Below are positions 295 to 22,502 of a stretch of DNA of 22,502 nt, one piece after another. Each line of letters starts with the position of its first letter. Within the stretch, counting starts at the first letter, position 1. The notes beneath the pieces were generated by a model, which saw only the letters and a program-made list of their open reading frames with translations, was not told the origin of the DNA and did no database searches. A program made the translations under genes and the position numbers. The DNA comes from a virus: positions 1 to 22,502 of the IMG/VR virus record IMGVR_UViG_3300030108_004730; one strand, given 5' to 3'.

Positions 295-1731
295 ATGGAA
301 CTTGCTATTTTAATGGCAGGTATTGTTTATGGCTTGATCATTGGCCTAATACCAGCCGCAGGAGCAACAACAGGACTGATTACACTATTTGGATTCATGC
401 CCTACTTTGTGGGAGATCCTTACTTGGGTGTAATCTTTTGTGTCGCAGTTGTGGCATCCTCAACAACCGGTGATTCATTTAGTGGTGTGCTTTTAGGTAT
501 ACCGGGAGCCAACTCTGCGGCCGCCACCATGGTGGACGGATTCCCTATGGCCAAGAATGGAGAGGCAACAAGAGCACTTTCGGCCGCCATAACATCAAGC
601 ACTGTAAATGGTCTGTTCTGGGGATCGCTGACCTTTTTATTTCTTCCATGGTATACGCAGGTTGTTATGTTCATGGGCATTCCGGAACTGTGGGCATTGG
701 TGTTACTTGCCTTTGTGACGGTTGGCTTTGTATCCACAAGAAAATATGTTAGAAGCACACTTGCTATCATTTTGGGAATAACAATAGGACTTGTTGGGGT
801 TGATGTCAATAATGTTCCCCGTTTCACAATGGGTTGGAGATATCTTGAAGACGGAGTGCAAATATTGCCTTTTGTAGCTGGACTTTTTGCCATACCAGAA
901 CTATGGGATGGTTGGTTCAAGAGAAAAACAACCACTTCTGTAAAGGCAGTGCATGGCAGTTGGCTAGATGTTAAACAAGGTTTCCAAGATTCCATGAACT
1001 GTTGGAAAGATAGCATACGAGGTGGAGCAATTGGATCATTCATAGGACTTTTGCCTGGGCTTGGTGGAGCCATGGCAGACTGGTTGGCTTACGGGGCCAC
1101 GGTCGCGGCAAATCCTAAAGAAAAGTTTGGTAACGGAAACGTTAGAGGTATAGTGGGGGCAGAAGGCGCCAACAACGCTCAGAAAGCCTCATCATTTATT
1201 CCTACTGTGTTGTTTGGGATTCCAGGAGCACCATTCGCCGCAATTCTGATGGGCTTATTTTTATATCTAGGAATTGACCTCGGATCACCAGACACGTTTT
1301 ACGATGACAAATTATTTGACAGCATGACATTCGCATTCCTATTGGGCACAATGATCACTGCTTTTATATGTTATGGACTGGCATATTTCGCAGGTTGGGT
1401 AACACGTATTCCATATGTTTACTATTTTCCTTTTATACTTGCCGTTATTGTTTGGGCAACATTACAATATAGTGGCGGATGGGAAGACCTTGCGGTGCTA
1501 ATTGCATTCTCAACATTGGGACTGCTATGTAAAAAATTCCAAGTCAGTAGGCCAGCACTACTGATAGGGTACCTGTTGAGTGACAGGATATATAATCTCA
1601 CTTATCAACTAACATCTCTACATACTGTAAATGATTTAATTTCAAGACCAATCTTTATCTTTATAATTATTTGTGTTATACTTTTACTGTATTGGGGAAT
1701 AACAAAAAGGAGCAAATTAGACTATGCTTAA
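295..1731 (+). CDS. tctA: TctA-family tripartite carboxylate transporter, large permease subunit
   Basis: A 478-residue, strongly hydrophobic inner-membrane protein with the internal duplication typical of TctA. The first repeat has GLIIGLIPAAGATTGL (residues 13-28), LLGIPGANSAAATM (66-79) and DGFPMAKNGEATRAL (81-95). The second has GSFIGLLPGLGGAMADWLAYG (247-267), GAEGANNA (288-295) and LFGIPGAPFAAILMG (306-320). In the family this subunit carries tricarboxylates or other carboxylates across the inner membrane, using substrate delivered by a periplasmic binding protein. The N-terminus is some 15-20 residues shorter than usual for the family, whose members are about 500 aa. The stop overlaps the start of tctC by 8 nt, so the two are translationally coupled. 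No TctB (small four-helix subunit) is seen on either side. A GAAATAA variant of the late octamer lies at 282-288. Substrate not predictable. Confidence 0.88.
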   Translation: MELAILMAGIVYGLIIGLIPAAGATTGLITLFGFMPYFVGDPYLGVIFCVAVVASSTTGDSFSGVLLGIPGANSAAATMVDGFPMAKNGEATRALSAAITSSTVNGLFWGSLTFLFLPWYTQVVMFMGIPELWALVLLAFVTVGFVSTRKYVRSTLAIILGITIGLVGVDVNNVPRFTMGWRYLEDGVQILPFVAGLFAIPELWDGWFKRKTTTSVKAVHGSWLDVKQGFQDSMNCWKDSIRGGAIGSFIGLLPGLGGAMADWLAYGATVAANPKEKFGNGNVRGIVGAEGANNAQKASSFIPTVLFGIPGAPFAAILMGLFLYLGIDLGSPDTFYDDKLFDSMTFAFLLGTMITAFICYGLAYFAGWVTRIPYVYYFPFILAVIVWATLQYSGGWEDLAVLIAFSTLGLLCKKFQVSRPALLIGYLLSDRIYNLTYQLTSLHTVNDLISRPIFIFIIICVILLLYWGITKRSKLDYA

Positions 1732-2770
1732 AAAAACAATAATGGCTTTGTTTTTAATGACAACAACAGCCATGGCAGATTACAATTTAATCGTGCCACA
1801 AAAACCATCTGGTGGAACTTCTGTGTGGGCACAGATAGTTGTGGCAGAATGGGAGAAACATCTAGGCGAAAAGATCAACTTGATCTACAAGCCTGGTGCA
1901 AGAGATCAACTTGGTCCTAATCAATTCCAAAATGAATTGCGATTTGATAATAAAACTATTTTGGTATCACATGGGGGTAACGGTATATCATATCTTGTTG
2001 AGCCTGTCGACTACAATTACTTAGATTGGGAATCCATTGGACAGATGAATTTAAACATTATTGTAGGTGCAAGGAAAAACGCAGATGTGTTGAATGGTCC
2101 AATACAGTTTCCATCAGGATCAGGAATGACTCCTGAAGTGATGGCTATAACCATGTTATTGGCCGGACCTAACAATGATCCAATTAAAACTTTTGAGGAG
2201 AAGATTGTTTGGGTGAAAGGCATGAAAGGATCTGAAAGACGTTTAGCATTCATCAGAGGTGACTTGAACGCTACCAGAGAGAATCCTGCGGCATACAAAA
2301 AGCATGTGTTGCCGGTAATCAAAAAAGGTGACGCCTACACTTGGTTTCATCATGGTTTGCTGGATGTAGCAACAGGTGAACACAATGCAGATCCTAACTT
2401 TGAAGAGCCAACATTCGAGGCGCTGTATGAAGAGATGTGGTTGACCGCTCCGAGTGGAAACTTCTACGATGCATATAAACTTGTGAAGAGTTGGAGAGAT
2501 GCTTTGCAAAAAGCCTTTTGGGTCAACAAAGGAAATCCAAACAAAGAAAAACTTGTTAAGGCTTTGGACAAGATGATAAAAGATCCCGAGTCAGTTGCCG
2601 CAATTGAAAAGAAGGTCGGCAAATACGAGTGGAGAACAGGAGCAGAAGGGGATAATGCAGTGAAAACTTTGAAGTCTTTTATTACTCCTGAAGCACTTCA
2701 AACTTTGGCTGATTTTAAAAGTAAACAGTTAGGTTACAACACAGTGTACAAGGAAGATCTTACGAAATAA
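1724..2770 (+). CDS. tctC: TctC-like periplasmic substrate-binding protein of the carboxylate transporter
   Basis: A 348-residue protein with a clear Sec signal peptide (MLKKTIMALFLMTTTAMA, likely cut before DYN). The mature N-terminus LIVPQKPSGGTSVWAQIVVAEW and the following KINLIYKPGA match the start of the Bug/TctC fold, where a PxxPGG(x)-like loop and a VxNKPGA-like strand frame the ligand cleft. Mature length is close to the family's roughly 300 residues, with some extra sequence. The start is fixed by the signal peptide, by an AAAGGAG ribosome binding site at about 1707-1713, and by the 8-nt ATGCTTAA overlap with tctA. The gene order A-C, without B between, differs from the usual bacterial tctCBA. 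The sequence is divergent, so the ligand is unknown and TctC is a family-level call. Confidence 0.75.
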   Translation: MLKKTIMALFLMTTTAMADYNLIVPQKPSGGTSVWAQIVVAEWEKHLGEKINLIYKPGARDQLGPNQFQNELRFDNKTILVSHGGNGISYLVEPVDYNYLDWESIGQMNLNIIVGARKNADVLNGPIQFPSGSGMTPEVMAITMLLAGPNNDPIKTFEEKIVWVKGMKGSERRLAFIRGDLNATRENPAAYKKHVLPVIKKGDAYTWFHHGLLDVATGEHNADPNFEEPTFEALYEEMWLTAPSGNFYDAYKLVKSWRDALQKAFWVNKGNPNKEKLVKALDKMIKDPESVAAIEKKVGKYEWRTGAEGDNAVKTLKSFITPEALQTLADFKSKQLGYNTVYKEDLTK

Positions 2771-3351
2771 TGTACATACTTTTTACAGGGGCACCAGGAT
2801 CTAAATGGAGCAGTGTGTGTAAAAATATCTATTGGAGCGAAGATATTGATCACACCGACTATACCGAAGAACGAACATACTCCGTAGAGACCGATACCCC
2901 TGGAGAAAAGAAAGTGATGCATTTTGGAGCATATTGGGATCCGGGAATGGAATTCACCCCAATAGATTGGGACGGGCCATTCAGTGGTGTAGGCAGAAGG
3001 ATAATCAAATGTCACACTTTCGCTCATGAACTCGAGGAACTTAAGACTAAAGGATATCCAATAGTAATGTGTTTGAGATCCAATGGTGGATGTATTGAAT
3101 GGTGGACCAAAGCAGGAGCATTCAATATCACATATCCCAACTATCAATACTATAGGACAAGGACCAGAATGTGGGAACACATAAAAAAACAAAACTTTGA
3201 TATAAAAACTTTCTATCAGAATAATAAAAAAAGAATAGTAGAATTGTACAATAATGAAGAACTTTGTAAAACACTGGCAATTAAGTATCCTAAAGACACA
3301 CCCATACATGATTACAAAGAAAACAATGTCAGAGTCTTTGTTTATCAATAA
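2770..3351 (+). CDS. P-loop / sulfotransferase-like protein
   Basis: 193 residues beginning MYILFTGAPGSKWSSV. The TGAPGSKWS loop directly after the first strand is P-loop-like and resembles the 5'-phosphosulfate loop of sulfotransferases. YPIVMCLRSNGGCIEWWTKAG (residues 96-116) is placed like a 3'-phosphate-binding strand and helix with an Arg. A PAPS- or nucleotide-binding fold is therefore likely, but no substrate can be named. The start overlaps the tctC stop by 1 nt (TAATG), placing it in the same transcription unit. The C-terminal third is basic and helical. A kinase or another P-loop NTPase is possible. Confidence 0.5.
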   Translation: MYILFTGAPGSKWSSVCKNIYWSEDIDHTDYTEERTYSVETDTPGEKKVMHFGAYWDPGMEFTPIDWDGPFSGVGRRIIKCHTFAHELEELKTKGYPIVMCLRSNGGCIEWWTKAGAFNITYPNYQYYRTRTRMWEHIKKQNFDIKTFYQNNKKRIVELYNNEELCKTLAIKYPKDTPIHDYKENNVRVFVYQ

Positions 3352-3399: not shown

Positions 3400-4065
3400 A
3401 TGAACAAAAAAATATTCAATGAATTGCTTTCTTTCAGCAACAACGATATTACCAAAATTACACAACCTTACATTATGGAAACATTCGGAGTAGATGTAAA
3501 GCGATGTGATAGTTTAGAACAATATGCAAATATCATAGATGATGCATGTCTAAACAAATATTTTTCCAAATATTGGCAGAATGACATGAAGAAATGGAAG
3601 TACTCTGGTCTGGCATTGATCGATGAGGTGAACAATCTCAAACCGAGAGCGGTACTGGATGTAGGCTGTGGCTATAATGAATTCAAGGGCAGAATTAATA
3701 ACATAATAGGCATTGATCCTTATAACAAAAATGCCGATCTGCAAGTGGGTACATTGGAATATAAAACCGATCAAAAGTTTGATGTGATTTTGTGTCTGGG
3801 CTCAGTGAACTTTGGCAGTAGAGACAAGATAACAGCAGAGGTTGAGAGATGTGAAAGACTATTGGCCGATGGTGGCACAATGTTCTTTAGGGTCAATCCT
3901 GGCTTGCCGCATGACAAACCTGAAGCCGATTGGATTGAATTTTATGCTTGGAATGTTCCATTTATTATAGAGCTGAGTGAAAAATTCAACTTAAAAATAC
4001 TGGATATTCGTGACGACACCAACAGCCGTAAGTATTTTGTGTATAAAAAAGTGGCTAAACCGTAG
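3400..4065 (+). CDS. SAM-dependent methyltransferase (class I)
   Basis: 221 residues with a Rossmann-fold methyltransferase core. Motif I is VLDVGCGYN (85-93). GIDPYN (104-109) is the acidic-loop strand that binds the ribose. FDVILCLGSVNFGS (127-140) is motif IV-like, and LLADGGTMFFRVNP (154-167) is the following helix-strand. The N-terminal 70 residues form a helical cap containing many aromatic residues. It resembles the small methyltransferases found in marine T4-like phages, often near glycosyltransferases, where a sugar or virion-glycan substrate is plausible; this is inference. No DNA-recognition domain or (D/N)PPY motif is visible, so a DNA N-methyltransferase is unlikely. Confidence 0.8.
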   Translation: MNKKIFNELLSFSNNDITKITQPYIMETFGVDVKRCDSLEQYANIIDDACLNKYFSKYWQNDMKKWKYSGLALIDEVNNLKPRAVLDVGCGYNEFKGRINNIIGIDPYNKNADLQVGTLEYKTDQKFDVILCLGSVNFGSRDKITAEVERCERLLADGGTMFFRVNPGLPHDKPEADWIEFYAWNVPFIIELSEKFNLKILDIRDDTNSRKYFVYKKVAKP

Positions 4066-4410: not shown

Positions 4411-5625
4411 ATGTTAATTGAAGATGTTCTCACAGAGTTCAAAAGGACACACCTAGAACACATAGAAGATATTATCATAACAGATGGATTTGAGGGTGGT
4501 AAGGCTGTTGTTGAATATTTCAGAGGACTGTTACTGACCCTCAAAGGCACCAGTTCAGAAGCAGTCAAGGTGAGTGTGAAGTGGGACGGTGCACCTGCTG
4601 TTGTCTGTGGCGTCAATCCTGACAATGGTAGATTTTTTGTTGGCACCAAGTCTGTGTTCGCACAAAGTCCAAAAATAAACTACACCAAACGAGATATCGC
4701 AAAAAATCATGGCACTGATGATCTCGGACAAAAACTGCTTAAATGTTTGGTGCATTTAAAAAAGATCAACATGAATGGTGTGTATCAGGGAGACCTACTA
4801 TTCACCGACGAAGACATCACTAGAAAAAACATAGATGGCAAGCCACATTTAACATTCAATCCAAACACTATAACCTATGCGGTTCCTGAGCAAAGTGAAT
4901 TGGGAAAACAAATCGATGTGGCAAAAGTTGGTATCATATTCCATACTACCTATGTTGGCGAAACACTGGCTGACATGAATGCTAGTGCAGGGGCAAATAT
5001 TGAAGAATTTTCAAAAAATAGTTCAGTGTTCTTTGATAACGCAAGTTATAAAGATGTGTCTGGCAGTGCAAAATTTACAGATGACGAAACAAAAATATTT
5101 TTAGCTGAGATAGACAAGTTGGAAAGTTTATTGTCAAGGGTGCCACGTAACCTATCTAACCTATTTGGTGCTAATCAAGACTTTGTACCATTCTTTCAGA
5201 TGTATATTAATTTCATGGTCAAAGAAGGCCAGTTGCCTCAGAATAGTACAGAATTTCTACAAGGCTTTAGAAAATTTTATATTGATCGAATGCAACAACA
5301 AATATCTGGTTTAAAAGCACAAAGGGCTCTGGACCTGAGACAAGATAAAATCAAACAGATGCCACAATTCCTAAACAAACTGAAGGCCCCATTACAGAAC
5401 ATGCTATCTTTTTACAAACAGGTGCAAAGGATGAAAATGTTTGTGCTGAAAAAAATGAACCAAGCGATGGCAATAGGATCATTTCAACAGACCGAGAATG
5501 GATTGGAAGTCACAGAGCCAGAAGGATTTGTTGCTGTAGACAAGACAGGCAACGCTGTCAAACTTGTGGATAGGTTAGGATTCAGTCGACGTAATTTGAC
5601 CGCTATCAGCAAATTCAAGAAATAA
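4411..5625 (+). CDS. DUF6267-like phage protein with a KWDG nucleotidyltransferase-like motif
   Basis: 404 residues, preceded by an AAGAGGA ribosome binding site. The N-terminal half contains VKVSVKWDGAPAVV (residues 52-65), where K57-W-D-G matches motif I (KxDG) of the ATP-dependent ligase/nucleotidyltransferase superfamily. GVYQGDLLF (123-131) is placed like the GE(L/Y) motif III, and KVGIIFHTTY (172-181) like motif IV. The C-terminal half (about 230-380) is helical and basic with many Q/K residues. From memory this matches a conserved family in marine T4-like phages annotated DUF6267. A ligase-like adenylyl transfer is a plausible but unproven activity. The last 51 nt overlap the end of the convergent glycosyltransferase gene. 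Confidence 0.75.
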   Translation: MLIEDVLTEFKRTHLEHIEDIIITDGFEGGKAVVEYFRGLLLTLKGTSSEAVKVSVKWDGAPAVVCGVNPDNGRFFVGTKSVFAQSPKINYTKRDIAKNHGTDDLGQKLLKCLVHLKKINMNGVYQGDLLFTDEDITRKNIDGKPHLTFNPNTITYAVPEQSELGKQIDVAKVGIIFHTTYVGETLADMNASAGANIEEFSKNSSVFFDNASYKDVSGSAKFTDDETKIFLAEIDKLESLLSRVPRNLSNLFGANQDFVPFFQMYINFMVKEGQLPQNSTEFLQGFRKFYIDRMQQQISGLKAQRALDLRQDKIKQMPQFLNKLKAPLQNMLSFYKQVQRMKMFVLKKMNQAMAIGSFQQTENGLEVTEPEGFVAVDKTGNAVKLVDRLGFSRRNLTAISKFKK

Positions 5626-6621
5626 ATTGATAGTCTTATTCACCTGTTTACTTAATCTTTCCTTATTGAAAAACACATCATAGTTGTGCTGACGTAGTTT
5701 AATGGTTTGCAGATATAGATCTTTCCAATTTTTGTTCATTAGATCTTTACATAGTTCGCAAATGGCATCAATTTTTTTAATTGGATCTTTTTCTAGGTCA
5801 TAGGATTCATCAAAATAATGGCCAAATGTTTTGAAACCCATTTCACGTAATTTTTGCAGATATAAATGATTGCCGTGAACAACAAATATTTGTTGTGCGA
5901 TAATAGGCTTCCAAATTTTCTCTGTCATAAAAACATCGTGGTCATTGTCGTTGGACTCTGATACGATATTAAAAGCAGTTTCATTATATGGTTTTTCGTA
6001 GATGTCCTGATCCATGCCATAAAAAGGATAATCAGGTGCCCATGGTAGTTCGTAGTCTTTTGCTAATTTTTTGTCTGGCCAAAAACTATAAAGACTTTTT
6101 TGTAAAAAATTTGTTGAAGCTAATTTGTTGAACAAATTTGTCCTATGTTCTCTAAGCCCTTTATTAAGATATAAGAAATCATAATTCTTTTTGTTGTGAT
6201 CGAAAACAAATTTTGTATCTTTGTGTTTGTAATACATGTGTGACCAAAACCATGACACGCCTCCTGACCATTTGATATGATGTGTGTTCACTTCGGGATA
6301 CAATTCGCTTTTTGAAATATTATCTGCTGACTCCCATGGCGTGGCTGATATGAAAACAAAGCCTTGGCTATGCAGAAGTTTACATCTTCTTTCCAGTTCG
6401 TCATTAAATTCTATACTTCCTTTCAGCCGGTTGTTGTCGTGACGCACATCAATAATTACAAAACGCCTATCATAACTGTCCAAATCGTAATGATGTAATC
6501 TATAGTACTGCGATTCTAAACTGAATGATTGATCAGTTAGACTGTGTGAACTGATAAACTGCTCTATATCTTGATGTTTACCAGTTTTCATCAAATCTGT
6601 CAGAACAAAATTACGTTGCAT
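5575..6621 (-). CDS. phage glycosyltransferase, GT10 (fucosyltransferase)-like C-terminal domain
   Basis: 348 residues from the ATG at 6619-6621, chosen because it avoids overlap with the divergent gene and has AGG 4 nt upstream. YDFLYLNKGLREHRTNLFNKL (147-167) and the block FNIVSES (217-223), FMTEKIWKPI (231-240), GFKTF (262-266) match the donor-binding region of GT10-type enzymes, where (T)EK.W.P is the signature. Marine T4-like phages use such enzymes to decorate virion or host glycans; the acceptor is unknown. It is one of only two minus-strand genes in the window. Its 3' end runs 51 nt into the convergent KWDG gene, and its start lies 19 nt from a plus-strand gene. No clear minus-strand promoter was found. 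Confidence 0.75.
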   Translation of the reverse strand: MQRNFVLTDLMKTGKHQDIEQFISSHSLTDQSFSLESQYYRLHHYDLDSYDRRFVIIDVRHDNNRLKGSIEFNDELERRCKLLHSQGFVFISATPWESADNISKSELYPEVNTHHIKWSGGVSWFWSHMYYKHKDTKFVFDHNKKNYDFLYLNKGLREHRTNLFNKLASTNFLQKSLYSFWPDKKLAKDYELPWAPDYPFYGMDQDIYEKPYNETAFNIVSESNDNDHDVFMTEKIWKPIIAQQIFVVHGNHLYLQKLREMGFKTFGHYFDESYDLEKDPIKKIDAICELCKDLMNKNWKDLYLQTIKLRQHNYDVFFNKERLSKQVNKTINLFLEFADSGQITSTES

Positions 6622-6627
6622 TTTACC

Positions 6628-6635
6628 TATAAATA
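6628..6635 (+). promoter_or_regulatory. perfect T4-type late promoter octamer
   Basis: TATAAATA is identical to the T4 late consensus. It lies in the 19-nt gap between two divergent starts and faces the plus-strand gene. Predicted start of transcription is 6641, the A of the ATG. Confidence 0.65.
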
Positions 6636-6640
6636 CCTTT

Positions 6641-7486
6641 ATGTTAACACCTTTTTTAAAGTATGTATCTGAAGGCAGGATTGTAAGACGCCAAAGCGAC
6701 CTACAACGATACACATTCCAAGAAATCACGGAAAGGATCTATTTGTCTTTCCTGACTCTTACGTTGCTTAGAAGTTTCCAACAAACAATAGGATTCACAA
6801 AGGCCTATGCCAATGACACGTTGGCCTATGGATCTTTTGATAGGGTGCGACCCACTTCGAATGATCTTCATAACATGCTGGCTGTTGTTGCTGGCGATCC
6901 TGAGATCACAAAAAAATTAGCCAATAAAAATGCCGCAATGGCCTTGAGGCAAAGGCAGACGGTGCCTGTCCTGGCAATTCGTAGATATCTAAGAGATTTC
7001 AAAAACAGCTTTCAATTTCTTTCAAATTTGGAATCGGCCTTAGGTATAGGAAATTTGGATTACAAAAACTTGCGTAGAGCCATAAGTGATTATGCAAATC
7101 TTGATGCTCGAAGGAAAAAACTAACAACAACCAGGCTGTTACAAGCACTTAAGGCAAAACTTTCTGGAACTGACTTACAAAGAAAGGCACAAGAGTTTGC
7201 AGACAAGCAAAAACTTGAGTTGGATAATGTTGTCGATGCAGAAAGAACCGTGCCTGGTGCAGAACTTACGCCAGACGAAATGACTGGTTACAGAGTGCTG
7301 GTGGGTGCATCAAATGTGAGACGTGCCAAAGTTGCCGCTGACATGATAAGGCAGGGCAGAGCTGTGCCGGCACCTGTTATGCAGGCCTATGCACCAGTTG
7401 TAAGAATGATCGATGACATTGTAAAAGGTGGTTATAGTTTTGTGAGGCTATTACAAAATATACATGACAGAGCAAAGAAAAAATAA
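6641..7486 (+). CDS. conserved phage protein, function unknown, basic and helical
   Basis: 281 residues (begins MLTPFLKYVSEGRIVRRQSD), mostly helical and rich in Arg and Lys, with no membrane segment, signal peptide or motif I recognise. The charged helical segments (about residues 120-215) would suit a structural or nucleic-acid-associated role, but this is only inference from composition. The late octamer directly before the start places it among late (virion or assembly) genes. Its last 23 nt overlap the Cys-rich miniprotein gene in another frame. Confidence 0.65.
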   Translation: MLTPFLKYVSEGRIVRRQSDLQRYTFQEITERIYLSFLTLTLLRSFQQTIGFTKAYANDTLAYGSFDRVRPTSNDLHNMLAVVAGDPEITKKLANKNAAMALRQRQTVPVLAIRRYLRDFKNSFQFLSNLESALGIGNLDYKNLRRAISDYANLDARRKKLTTTRLLQALKAKLSGTDLQRKAQEFADKQKLELDNVVDAERTVPGAELTPDEMTGYRVLVGASNVRRAKVAADMIRQGRAVPAPVMQAYAPVVRMIDDIVKGGYSFVRLLQNIHDRAKKK

Positions 7487-13032: not shown

Positions 13033-14331
13033 TTACAAATCTTTTACTAAATTCCATATTTGAGGATATATAGTTTTCCAATTAGTACCACGTCTACGGT
13101 CTAATTCATTTAGATATATTTTTAACTGTTTCTGTCTTAGAAGATTAGGCTCTCTTTTAGCAAATTCTTTCATGTTTCCGATCATAAACTTTTGGTGAGA
13201 AACTTTTACAGAGTCCGGATAGCCAAATGATTTTGTATCAAACATTTCTATTGCTTCTCGTAGCCCCCAATCATTAATTTTATTTCCAAATATACCTGGA
13301 TACAAATATGGCCTAATGCCAAATTCATGTTCGTTGGCTTTCATCATGCTCCAATAGATGGGTTTGACTTTATTGCATTTATTAATGTATCTAACCATTT
13401 CAGGCATGCCTGGTACGGCCGTAACTGTCAACGCTGAATTGATTGCTTGTTCAATTTGAGTGTTGTAAAGTATATGTTCAAAATTTGGAATGGCAACCTT
13501 AAGGTCAAGTCCTGTACGAACGTATTCACCTTCTGGACCTAATGCATCACAACTAAAAAAGATCTGGATTTTATCCAGTCTACCTGATCTCTGTAATTTC
13601 TCGAGACGATTGATCCAGTTTTTAAATCTCTCATGTTCTATGTTGTGATTACTAAAGAAAACTAATGTAAGATCAGGATAGTCACCCTTCTCAAGGAATT
13701 CGATAAATCTGAATGTTTCTTTTTGTAAAAACGGCTCACCGCCCATTACAAATATCTTATGTAAACTATGTAAGTTCTTTTCAAACCATTTAAATAGGAG
13801 TTCCGTGTGCCGTTCTATATTAGGATTCTTCTTCCACCAGTCATTGATCTCAACTCCATCTTGTTCAAACTCGCCAAATCTTTTTTCCTCCTGTTGGATT
13901 GTCGAGCTGTAATGAGCTCCACAATATATACATGATTGCTGACAGGTATTTCCCCAGTACACTTCAAGTTGTCTTGGCGTGACGTCAACTGCTTCAAGAT
14001 CATTATCAAGCTCAGGAGGAGCAGTTGTGCCTTCAAGATTTAAGTGTATCATCCTATCTGATGTACCACCTGCTTCTTCTATGTGTTTACAATGTTGGCA
14101 CCCTCTCCCTGGCCATTCACCTCGTAGCATCTTCCTACGATCTTCGAGCTTTGCAGGTAGATTATGAAAATTTAATTCATTATTTTTTATTTCAAGTGGA
14201 TCACCTTGCACCCTATGACAACTCGCAGAAGTTCCATCTGTGAGATAGATAGTGCTGTGTGTCCATTTCAATTGACAAGGCAGTCCCTTGGTAATTGGAA
14301 ACGGTTTAGGTGGTTGCTTTGATATTCCCAT
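13033..14331 (-). CDS. radical SAM protein with N-terminal SPASM/twitch-like cysteine region (1)
   Basis: 432 residues. C130-x3-C-x2-C137 (NTCQQSCIYCGAH) is the radical SAM [4Fe-4S] motif, and GGEPF (197-201) is the conserved SAM-binding GGE strand. Before it, C19, C38 (TDGTSASCHR), C78 and C81 (GCQHCKHIEEAGG) follow the pattern of a SPASM/twitch auxiliary cluster, which in most families lies after, not before, the radical SAM barrel. Such proteins are found in marine T4-like phages, usually annotated twitch-domain radical SAM; their reaction is unknown. The gene is minus strand with stop codons back-to-back with the preceding gene, and its start is 18 nt from the divergent nuclease gene. Confidence 0.8.
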   Translation of the reverse strand: MGISKQPPKPFPITKGLPCQLKWTHSTIYLTDGTSASCHRVQGDPLEIKNNELNFHNLPAKLEDRRKMLRGEWPGRGCQHCKHIEEAGGTSDRMIHLNLEGTTAPPELDNDLEAVDVTPRQLEVYWGNTCQQSCIYCGAHYSSTIQQEEKRFGEFEQDGVEINDWWKKNPNIERHTELLFKWFEKNLHSLHKIFVMGGEPFLQKETFRFIEFLEKGDYPDLTLVFFSNHNIEHERFKNWINRLEKLQRSGRLDKIQIFFSCDALGPEGEYVRTGLDLKVAIPNFEHILYNTQIEQAINSALTVTAVPGMPEMVRYINKCNKVKPIYWSMMKANEHEFGIRPYLYPGIFGNKINDWGLREAIEMFDTKSFGYPDSVKVSHQKFMIGNMKEFAKREPNLLRQKQLKIYLNELDRRRGTNWKTIYPQIWNLVKDL

Positions 14332-15066: not shown

Positions 15067-16191
15067 ATGAAGACAGAACCGGACAAATTCTGTAAGGCTC
15101 CTTTTCGTAGTCTTGTGGTTGACAACGATGGAACATTGTTGCCATGTTGTGAATTTATAAGAGATGAATCTTCGCTACCACAATATAAAATATGGGAGTT
15201 TGAAAAATACAAGGCAGACACTTCCCTACGGCAAAAAATGCTTGATGGTCATATAGATGGTGGGTGTGCTTATTGCATTAAAAGAGAAGACAACGGCATA
15301 AACAGGAGACAGCATCACAGTAGGTTGTTTAAAGAAACTTATGAATCATTCACCCCAAATACTTTTGATGTAGGACATTTTGAACTAAGACTTGGAAATT
15401 TTTGTAATTTAAAATGTGCTTATTGTGGACCGTATGCCAGTTCACAATGGTCTGCTGAGGCAAAAAAATACAAAGATAAATTTGCAAAATTTAGTATTGG
15501 ATCTCTCAAATCAGATTATGATTGGGTAATGGATGAAGGGAATAAAAAATTTATTAAAGACACCTTAAAAAATTGTATATCTGCACATTTTGGAGGAGGC
15601 GAACCTTTTATCAATCCTTTTATAAATGACTTTCTAAAACAAATACCACTAGAATCCAATCTTGCATTTAGTACCAATGGTACAAAACTTCCTAATAATA
15701 CTTTAGCCCTCTTACAGAATAGGCCTAATCTTAAAATCCATATCAGTATAGATGGTATTGGTGAACACAACGATTATATACGAAGCGGTAGCTCATGGAA
15801 AGACATAGAGAATAATGTAACAAAATTAAAAGAAAGAAAAATAGATTTTATGTTTTACTATCTACTTCAACACACCTCCCTTTTTACATTTCGTCATGTA
15901 TACGAATATTGTGTAAAAAATGACATACAACTTGAAATTGGTGAGATATATAATGGATCTGTTGACGGGTCAGGACATCTCACTTTAATGAGTGCAAAAC
16001 AGAATGACGTTGATAGATTAAAGAAATGGCTTTCTACAATCAACTCTCCAAATATTAAAGTAGTAGATAATTGGTTAGAAAAATACGAATACAACGCCAA
16101 ACTACATGATAGATTTAAACAGTATTTCGCCATGTTAGATAGTGTAAGAGGAACAAATTTTGTCAAAACGTTCAATCCTTGCTGGACATAA
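15067..16191 (+). CDS. radical SAM protein with N-terminal SPASM-like cysteine region (2)
   Basis: 374 residues. The catalytic cluster is C113-x3-C-x2-C120 (NFCNLKCAYCGPY), with GGGEPF at 176-181 and FSTNGT near 200. The first 70 residues carry FCKAPFRSLVVDNDGTLLPCC (C9, C27, C28) and GGCAYCIKRE (C67, C70), an arrangement closely like a SPASM domain but placed at the N-terminus. This fixes the start, since C9 is only 8 residues in. It shares its order of modules with the minus-strand radical SAM gene upstream, but the two are quite diverged. The substrate is unknown; SPASM proteins often modify peptides, and a target in this window would be a guess. Its stop lies inside the next late octamer. 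Confidence 0.82.
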   Translation: MKTEPDKFCKAPFRSLVVDNDGTLLPCCEFIRDESSLPQYKIWEFEKYKADTSLRQKMLDGHIDGGCAYCIKREDNGINRRQHHSRLFKETYESFTPNTFDVGHFELRLGNFCNLKCAYCGPYASSQWSAEAKKYKDKFAKFSIGSLKSDYDWVMDEGNKKFIKDTLKNCISAHFGGGEPFINPFINDFLKQIPLESNLAFSTNGTKLPNNTLALLQNRPNLKIHISIDGIGEHNDYIRSGSSWKDIENNVTKLKERKIDFMFYYLLQHTSLFTFRHVYEYCVKNDIQLEIGEIYNGSVDGSGHLTLMSAKQNDVDRLKKWLSTINSPNIKVVDNWLEKYEYNAKLHDRFKQYFAMLDSVRGTNFVKTFNPCWT

Positions 16192-21573: not shown

Positions 21574-22502
21574 ATGGATAATAAGGATTACAAACCTGTT
21601 CATACCAACAAGGTAAAAGATAACACTTCTCCTTTTACAGGAGCATTAGGTTGGTTGGACAATCGACTACCCATCTTTAGAATGTTCAAGCATGAATATC
21701 TTGACTTCCAGGTGCCTAAAAATCTTAATTATTTTTGGAGTTTTGGAGCAATACTGACATTCACCTTACTAGGACTAATAGCAACAGGACTGGTTCTTGG
21801 AATGCACTACAAACCTAGTGTGGCTGAGGCGTTCAGCAGTGTTGAACATATAATGAGAGATGTCAATGGAGGCTGGCTACTAAGATATGCCCACATGAAC
21901 CTGGCGTCGTTCTTTTTCATAGCAGTCTACATACACATGTTTAGGGGGCTATATTTTGGATCATATAAGGAACCAAGACAACTAATGTGGATATTTGGAA
22001 TCATAATATACTTCCTCATGATGGCCACAGCTTTCCTAGGATATGTTCTACCATGGGGACAGATGAGTTATTGGGGTGCCACAGTAATAACAAGTTTATT
22101 TGGAGCCATACCAGTGGTCGGCGATAGTATCGTCACATTGTTGTGGGGTGACTATTCAGTTGGTGATGCATTTCTAAACAGGGCATTTGTCTTACACTGG
22201 TTAATTGCATTTATAATTGTGGCGGTTGTTGTATTTCATGTCATTGCTTTACATATGACAGGATCGAATAACCCAACAGGGGTTGAACCAAAAGACACTA
22301 GGGACACAGTATCATTTCATCCATACATCACTCTCAAAGACATGTATGCTTTCCTTGTCTTCCTACTGATTTTTATGTTATTTTTGATGTATGTTCCTAA
22401 TATACTTGGACACCCAGACAATTACATTGAGGCCAATCCATTAGTGACTCCGGCACACATTGTACCTGAATGGTACTTTTTGCCGTGGTATGCAATCTTG
22501 AG
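21574..22502 (+). CDS. petB: cytochrome b of the cytochrome bc1 complex (partial, 309 aa, runs off window)
   Basis: The ORF is open from ATG 21574 to the window end. The four haem ligands are present as two H-x13-H pairs: H107/H121 ([10 protein letters not shown]...VYIHMFRG) and H208/H222 (VLHWLIAF...FHVIALH). [18 protein letters not shown] (157-173 region) and PEWY (298-301) are the Qo quinol-oxidation site, and [10 protein letters not shown] (229-238) and [10 protein letters not shown] are canonical. PEWY in the same chain and x13 in the second pair make it bc1-type, not cyanobacterial b6. One oddity: the usual H-x-N-G-A-S after the first ligand is HMNLAS here, with Leu for Gly. Arg codons are mixed AGA/AGG as in the phage genes. 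In the host this subunit transfers electrons from quinol to the Rieske protein and pumps protons. No Rieske gene lies upstream; c1 could lie downstream. Confidence 0.95.

Follow-up and report, generated by a model that had tools for sequence, protein, structure and literature searches.

A candidate TctB-less TTT-type importer encoded in an exchangeable cassette of marine T4-like phages

Can a virus-encoded permease and binding protein of the TTT family, lying side by side with no TctB nearby, form a working importer? The question is raised by the 22,502-base linear fragment analysed here, a whole IMG/VR record that we refer to as the window. On its plus strand, tctA (295..1731), encoding a TTT-family permease of 478 aa, runs into a tctC-like gene for a putatively periplasmic solute-binding protein of 348 aa (1724..2770, plus strand), such that the two genes share 8 nt (ATGCTTAA, 1724..1731, plus strand). 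The ORF coordinates confirm the A-C order and the overlap described in the initial annotation. The sequence AAGGAG lies upstream of the tctC ATG, and the overlap suggests that translation of the two genes is coupled. Among 93 distinct A-C loci, the same overlap of exactly 8 nt recurs in 86, which, together with the low dN/dS of the pair, places the arrangement in the window far from chance. The T4-type late promoter TATAAATA is absent upstream of tctA, with a single match, at chance level, elsewhere.

The tctA product matches PF01970 over positions 1-422 of the 423-position profile (E=3e-92). The initial annotation held the TctA motifs of both repeats to be intact, which is correct for the copy in TM7 but not for that in TM1. 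In TM7, the motif G-Hy3-G-Hy3-G-Hy2-P-G-Hy-G is present in the window as GSFIGLLPGLGG (GLLPGLGG; G-SFI-G-LL-P-G-L-G), and P-G-L/V/I-G recurs in the phage TctAs wherever the sequence is complete. In contrast, the TM1 copy in the window reads GLIPAAG (P-A-A-G) rather than P-G-x-G, and throughout the phage TctA family another residue stands in place of the glycine that follows the proline (P-[A/S/M]-A-G). Judged from the aligned sequences, the altered TM1 motif is a trait of the family and not a sign of decay, and the protein stays within PF01970 despite this change because the match spans the whole profile. Loss-of-function changes in conserved TctA residues were sought across the related phages and none was found; TctA is constrained. 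Comparison of a TctA structure model with the PDB returned no usable match.

The downstream gene is far more diverged. Its product has no match in Pfam, PHROGs or NCBIfam, and PF03401 is not reached above the curated cut-off in the window; across 24 related records, it matches no more than two fragments, at 11.7 bits. The N-terminus resembles a signal peptide (MLKKTIMALFLMTTTAMA|D, approximately residues 1-18); the segment, ending AMA|D, was judged by eye, and A18 and D19 are invariant in the alignment. A profile built from 16 phage TctC relatives reaches four PDB sequences at E<=1, all of them TctC/Bug but weak (E=0.06-0.9), and the best 17 PDB matches of an AlphaFold model (pLDDT 85) in Foldseek are 17 TctC/Bug chains (E<=7e-9). 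Since all matches of the profile and the best 17 of the model are TctC/Bug, the predicted fold identifies the product as a strongly diverged TctC-type binding protein, as had been proposed for this ORF, and one that ordinary annotation would miss.

A full TTT set of TctA, TctB and TctC was not found in the phages, whose genomes are incomplete: TctB (PF07331, E<=1) is absent from 24 long viral records, which include one with 97% identity to the window, and in a hydropathy search of 36 loci no small 4-TM protein is consistently present within 6 kb of the pair. The initial reading of a pair without TctB thus holds in these longer records, and a TctB ORF near the locus was looked for in related genomes and not found. 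Because conservation of TctB is very low (average identity 27%; PMC5812351), the searches could have missed a diverged or remote TctB-like gene located in another part of the incomplete phage genomes.

The bacterial relatives suggest how the subunit came to be missing. The closest relatives of the phage TctA and of the phage TctC are encoded in the same operons, found in Alphaproteobacteria and Gammaproteobacteria (for example L184, L187 and L190), where a TctC of 352-408 aa adjoins a TctA of 640-750 aa. Although Pfam does not recognize the C-terminal extension of these TctAs, its approximately 180 extra residues match TctB (hhalign, 95.9%, E=5e-9). These TctC-TctAB fusion operons resemble the phage pair in combining a permease with a TctC-type protein and no separate tctB, but they have C-A order and usually lie beside PrpF, whereas the phage TctA, in mostly A-C order, lacks the TctB-like domain. 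In the tree, the phage TctA and that of the marine bacterium B5-7, a gammaproteobacterium, form one clade (100/100) that groups with the fused proteins (100/99) and is nested among them (90/81). The stem of the phage clade is long, at 2.0 changes per column, and its place among the fused proteins therefore has only moderate support. Given this nesting, the missing TctB looks like a domain loss, the simplest history being that the fused C-terminal TctB domain was lost from the phage TctA. TctB is without known function and has not been seen in archaea, and a TctAB fusion has been noted in Paraburkholderia caribensis (PMC5812351).

On this basis we suggest that the pair is probably a functional, phage-encoded two-component importer of the TTT type, carried in a swappable cassette. 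In the periplasm of an infected cell, TctC would capture a small carboxylate and dock on TctA, which would carry the substrate inward on an ion gradient; with the ancestral fused TctB domain lost, no TctB subunit would be required. The minimal two-part importer that had been envisaged for this locus is thus plausible, in that a permease and a binding protein are encoded under constraint with no TctB nearby, although the altered TM1 motif counts against it.

The most serious alternative, which we consider unlikely, is that the pair does need TctB, either borrowed from the host, as the initial annotation proposed, or replaced by an unrecognized phage membrane protein. TctB defines most TTT systems, and it is encoded in 12 of 41 genomes comprising the Pelagibacter MAG of one possible SAR11 host and its relatives. 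However, the other 29 show none (some of the genomes may be incomplete), and those present serve other, distant TTT systems, which weakens the case for borrowing. As to a substitute, 2-TM proteins of approximately 150 aa are encoded just upstream of the pair on the opposite strand in 9 of 36 loci, but no small multi-TM neighbour is consistently present. Moreover, because TctB is fused to TctA in the nearest bacterial relatives, a free TctB is not a natural partner of the phage TctA.

The pair is also part of a larger unit. Directly downstream, on the plus strand, lie genes for a 193-aa P-loop-like protein (2770..3351; motif TGAPGSKWS, invariant) and a 221-aa SAM-dependent methyltransferase (3400..4065). 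The latter matches PF13489 at E=1.5e-5 and 25.3 bits, slightly below the curated 27, and its motif I (VLDVGCGYNEF) supports membership among the methyltransferases. Across 44 de-duplicated loci flanked by 2.5 kb or more, several of them close relatives so that the counts are partly non-independent, 43 have the methyltransferase near the pair and 42 have the P-loop-like protein, with several arrangements of the genes; the B5-7 locus retains both. The association also holds in the reverse direction. Searching from the P-loop-like protein, whose relatives come from alignment scans (a single-sequence scan gave near copies only), yielded 28 full-flank loci, and 21 of these encode the phage-type TctC within 5 kb. 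Among the seven without it, the neighbourhoods examined hold either a C-A tctC-tctA pair with a methyltransferase directly behind (L263, L268, L272, L284, L287) or an SSF symporter (L277). In 9 of the 10 distinct C-A loci, 12-14 nt separate the end of tctA from the methyltransferase start. The 193-aa partner had been considered as a sulfotransferase, but nine members gave no sulfotransferase family in Pfam even at E<=1 and no PDB sulfotransferase was matched; as the profiles give no support beyond the GxPGSxWS motif, that assignment was rejected and the protein is labelled here as P-loop-like only.

The cassette occupies a defined slot. In the window, the slot is bounded upstream by a small phage ORF (60..227, plus strand; cluster c14, 47 loci) and downstream by a 99-aa phage gene (4109..4408, plus strand; cluster c7, 87 loci), which is followed by a DUF6267/phrog_455 phage gene (4411..5625, plus strand; PF19782 E=2.5e-102, phrog_455 E=1e-95) that we used as an anchor. 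In phages with an empty slot, the 99-aa gene directly adjoins an upstream flank gene, as in L391, where the slot edges are 70 bp apart. Among 16 loci anchored on DUF6267, the methyltransferase is present in 8/8 with a transporter and 0/8 without, and the P-loop-like gene in 7/8 and 0/8, respectively (p=0.00016 and 0.0014, computed as if the loci were independent, whereas near copies reduce the empty loci to approximately five distinct lineages). Near sisters differ in occupancy: L391 is empty and L397 occupied at 94% identity of DUF6267, and L362 is empty and L360 occupied at 96%. The association at the anchored loci and the differences between sisters thus argue that the cassette is gained and lost as a unit. 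The slot can be empty in sister phages or be filled by a C-A tctCA pair or by an SSF Na+/solute symporter (PF00474; L277:5939-7384, L344:5936-7378, L350:5812-7257). This symporter shares the slot and the downstream partners of the tctAC pair, but is a one-part transporter of unrelated fold with no binding protein. Since the same slot takes either of these, it would be a site for transporters, with the transporter as the variable part of the cassette. T4-like marine phages may accordingly gain, lose and swap at one slot a cassette of permease, binding protein, P-loop-like protein and methyltransferase. In the C-A variant (L263:708-7286 and similar loci), the neighbourhood also includes its own methyltransferase, a nearby GATase/peptidase C26-like gene and a 231-aa protein, and loci of this type encode a 351-aa protein that is amidinotransferase-like in appearance, without profile support.

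That the pair is almost always accompanied by a methyltransferase and a P-loop-like protein could also mean that the cassette serves envelope modification or phage exclusion rather than nutrition, with a building block being imported or sensed and the two partners modifying surface molecules. Radical-SAM genes nearby and the conserved opposite-strand ORF at 5575-6729 of the window would fit such a role. We nevertheless regard it as improbable, given that the other occupant of the slot, the SSF symporter, is an uptake transporter, that neither partner matches the profile of a glycan-modifying family, and that a receptor-like feature was not found. A further role for the methyltransferase, for which the chances seem comparably slim, would be in a phage-specific, binding-protein-dependent transporter that does without the small membrane subunit and has a dedicated methyltransferase coupled to it, such that the carboxylate is methylated on entry and thereby trapped or rerouted for the phage. 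The notion of a trans-aconitate methyltransferase, which came from the PrpF and aconitase of the bacterial relatives, has no sequence evidence and is not claimed.

The pair recurs in hundreds of viral contigs, a scan with the TctC alignment giving 280 relatives, and both genes are kept in relatives of 50% identity. In most comparisons with unsaturated dS, dN/dS of the pair genes is approximately 0.03-0.08 (0.04-0.08 for tctA), showing that tctA and tctC are both under strong purifying selection. This bears on the earlier proposal that the binding protein mainly redirects host permeases to a new substrate, which would leave TctA vestigial. Pattern scans of viral contigs yielded more TctC than TctA relatives (204 and 83), but this is no fair count, since the two scans used different pattern sets, and selection on TctA is as strong as on TctC. 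In addition, TctA adjoins TctC wherever the contig is long enough; with a cognate permease co-encoded almost everywhere, redirection is not needed, and we hold it to be very improbable.

Outside viral contigs, two conserved peptide patterns of TctC, scanned against 84,980 prokaryote genomes, recovered only two loci, a 7.9-kb Pelagibacter MAG contig with the same cassette (L144) and the B5-7 MAG (L145); the phage TctC subfamily therefore appears nearly confined to phages, within the reach of this pattern scan. That the pair is host DNA or an assembly artefact, as the Pelagibacter contig might suggest, is scarcely credible, since in many independent contigs the neighbours of the pair include phage genes (DUF6267/phrog_455, exonuclease, virion protein), four related tctA-bearing contigs encode Gp23, and the Pelagibacter contig, on which the phage gene for DUF6267 is itself found, probably derives from a phage.

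The closest cultured phage for DUF6267 of the window is Pelagibacter phage HTVC008M (41%), and NrdA is closest to a cyanophage and to Pelagibacter phage Mosig (69%). One of the four Gp23s is 76% identical to that of Mosig, and two others that were compared are up to 72-76% identical to those of jumbo T4-like phages, Phosso among them, and PA5oct follows closely. Judging by these identities, the carriers of the pair include pelagimyophage-like and jumbo T4-like phages, and many marine T4-like phages are among them. SAR11 was considered as the host on indirect grounds; because Gp23 of the related contigs points to two phage groups, the host was not assigned to it. Among cultured phages, no TctC relative was found, and TctA matches reach only 26-30%.

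As to what the two-component importer would carry, the genes in the bacterial sister operons offer a guide: PrpF is encoded in 7 of 12, and single operons contain an aconitase (L190) or an isocitrate/isopropylmalate-type dehydrogenase (L187). By analogy with these distant relatives, the substrate would most likely be a di- or tricarboxylate (C4-C6) of the aconitate, tricarballylate or isocitrate kind, a weak guess given that the phage TctC is very distant from any characterized TctC. The cassette would presumably maintain uptake of this substrate during infection; phages may in this way feed the cells they infect through a transporter of their own.

Compared with the prototype TTT system, TctABC of Salmonella (TC 2.A.80), which likewise combines a TctA-family permease with a protein of the TctC fold but has a separate 4-TM TctB and the order tctCBA (PMC5812351), the phage pair has no TctB, an altered TM1 motif and a TctC below Pfam recognition. 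In viruses, Roux et al. (2014, PMC4164917) described tctA, from a domain hit only, as a putative auxiliary metabolic gene of viral contigs associated with SUP05, and a review (PMC6359870) lists it; in the relevant part of the original report, its metabolic role is called unknown, and a tctC partner, a cassette or TctB is not named. BFVD entries of uncultured Caudovirales annotated as PBP2_Bug_TTT or Bordetella uptake protein share the TctC/Bug fold, but at 280-317 aa and 11-16% identity they are apparently separate acquisitions. The main texts of pelagiphage and ocean AMG papers that we searched mention no tricarboxylate transporter, and in the papers open to search we found no description of the pair, of how it came to lack TctB or of the cassette. 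The kinship to TctAB fusions and the place of the pair within a larger cassette also go beyond the initial annotation. If the importer is active, the infected cell would receive from marine phages an organic-acid importer of high affinity, and phage-encoded uptake would be wider than phosphate. The clade further provides a natural test of the need for TctB, as the TctB domain is precisely what separates the phage proteins from the bacterial ones within a single lineage, and a slot with interchangeable transporters could be a way to read which nutrients limit infection.

Several other genes on these contigs deserve mention. A second TctA of approximately 445 aa is encoded in 6 of 24 related records; in G001, the contig nearest to the window, this second TctA-like permease is a 441-aa ORF (L409:4464-5789, minus strand), followed by a 289-aa signal-peptide protein without a family match (L409:3496-4365, minus strand). 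Directly after nrdA-nrdB lies a gene for a bc1-type cytochrome b (21574-22500 in the window; L410:1221-2474, minus strand). Its sole match among 50,697 phage records, at 41%, lies at the terminus of a record from a Helicobacter phage. Since G001 has a complete 417-aa copy at the same place, cytochrome b genuinely belongs to the phage in at least two contigs. The opposite-strand ORF of the window (5575-6729, minus strand) encodes 384 aa without a Pfam match and belongs to cluster c3, with approximately 100 loci. Finally, a phage exonuclease gene of the window is flanked by genes for two radical-SAM proteins (13033-14331, minus strand, and 15067-16191, plus strand), with cluster c11 relatives in approximately 40 loci.
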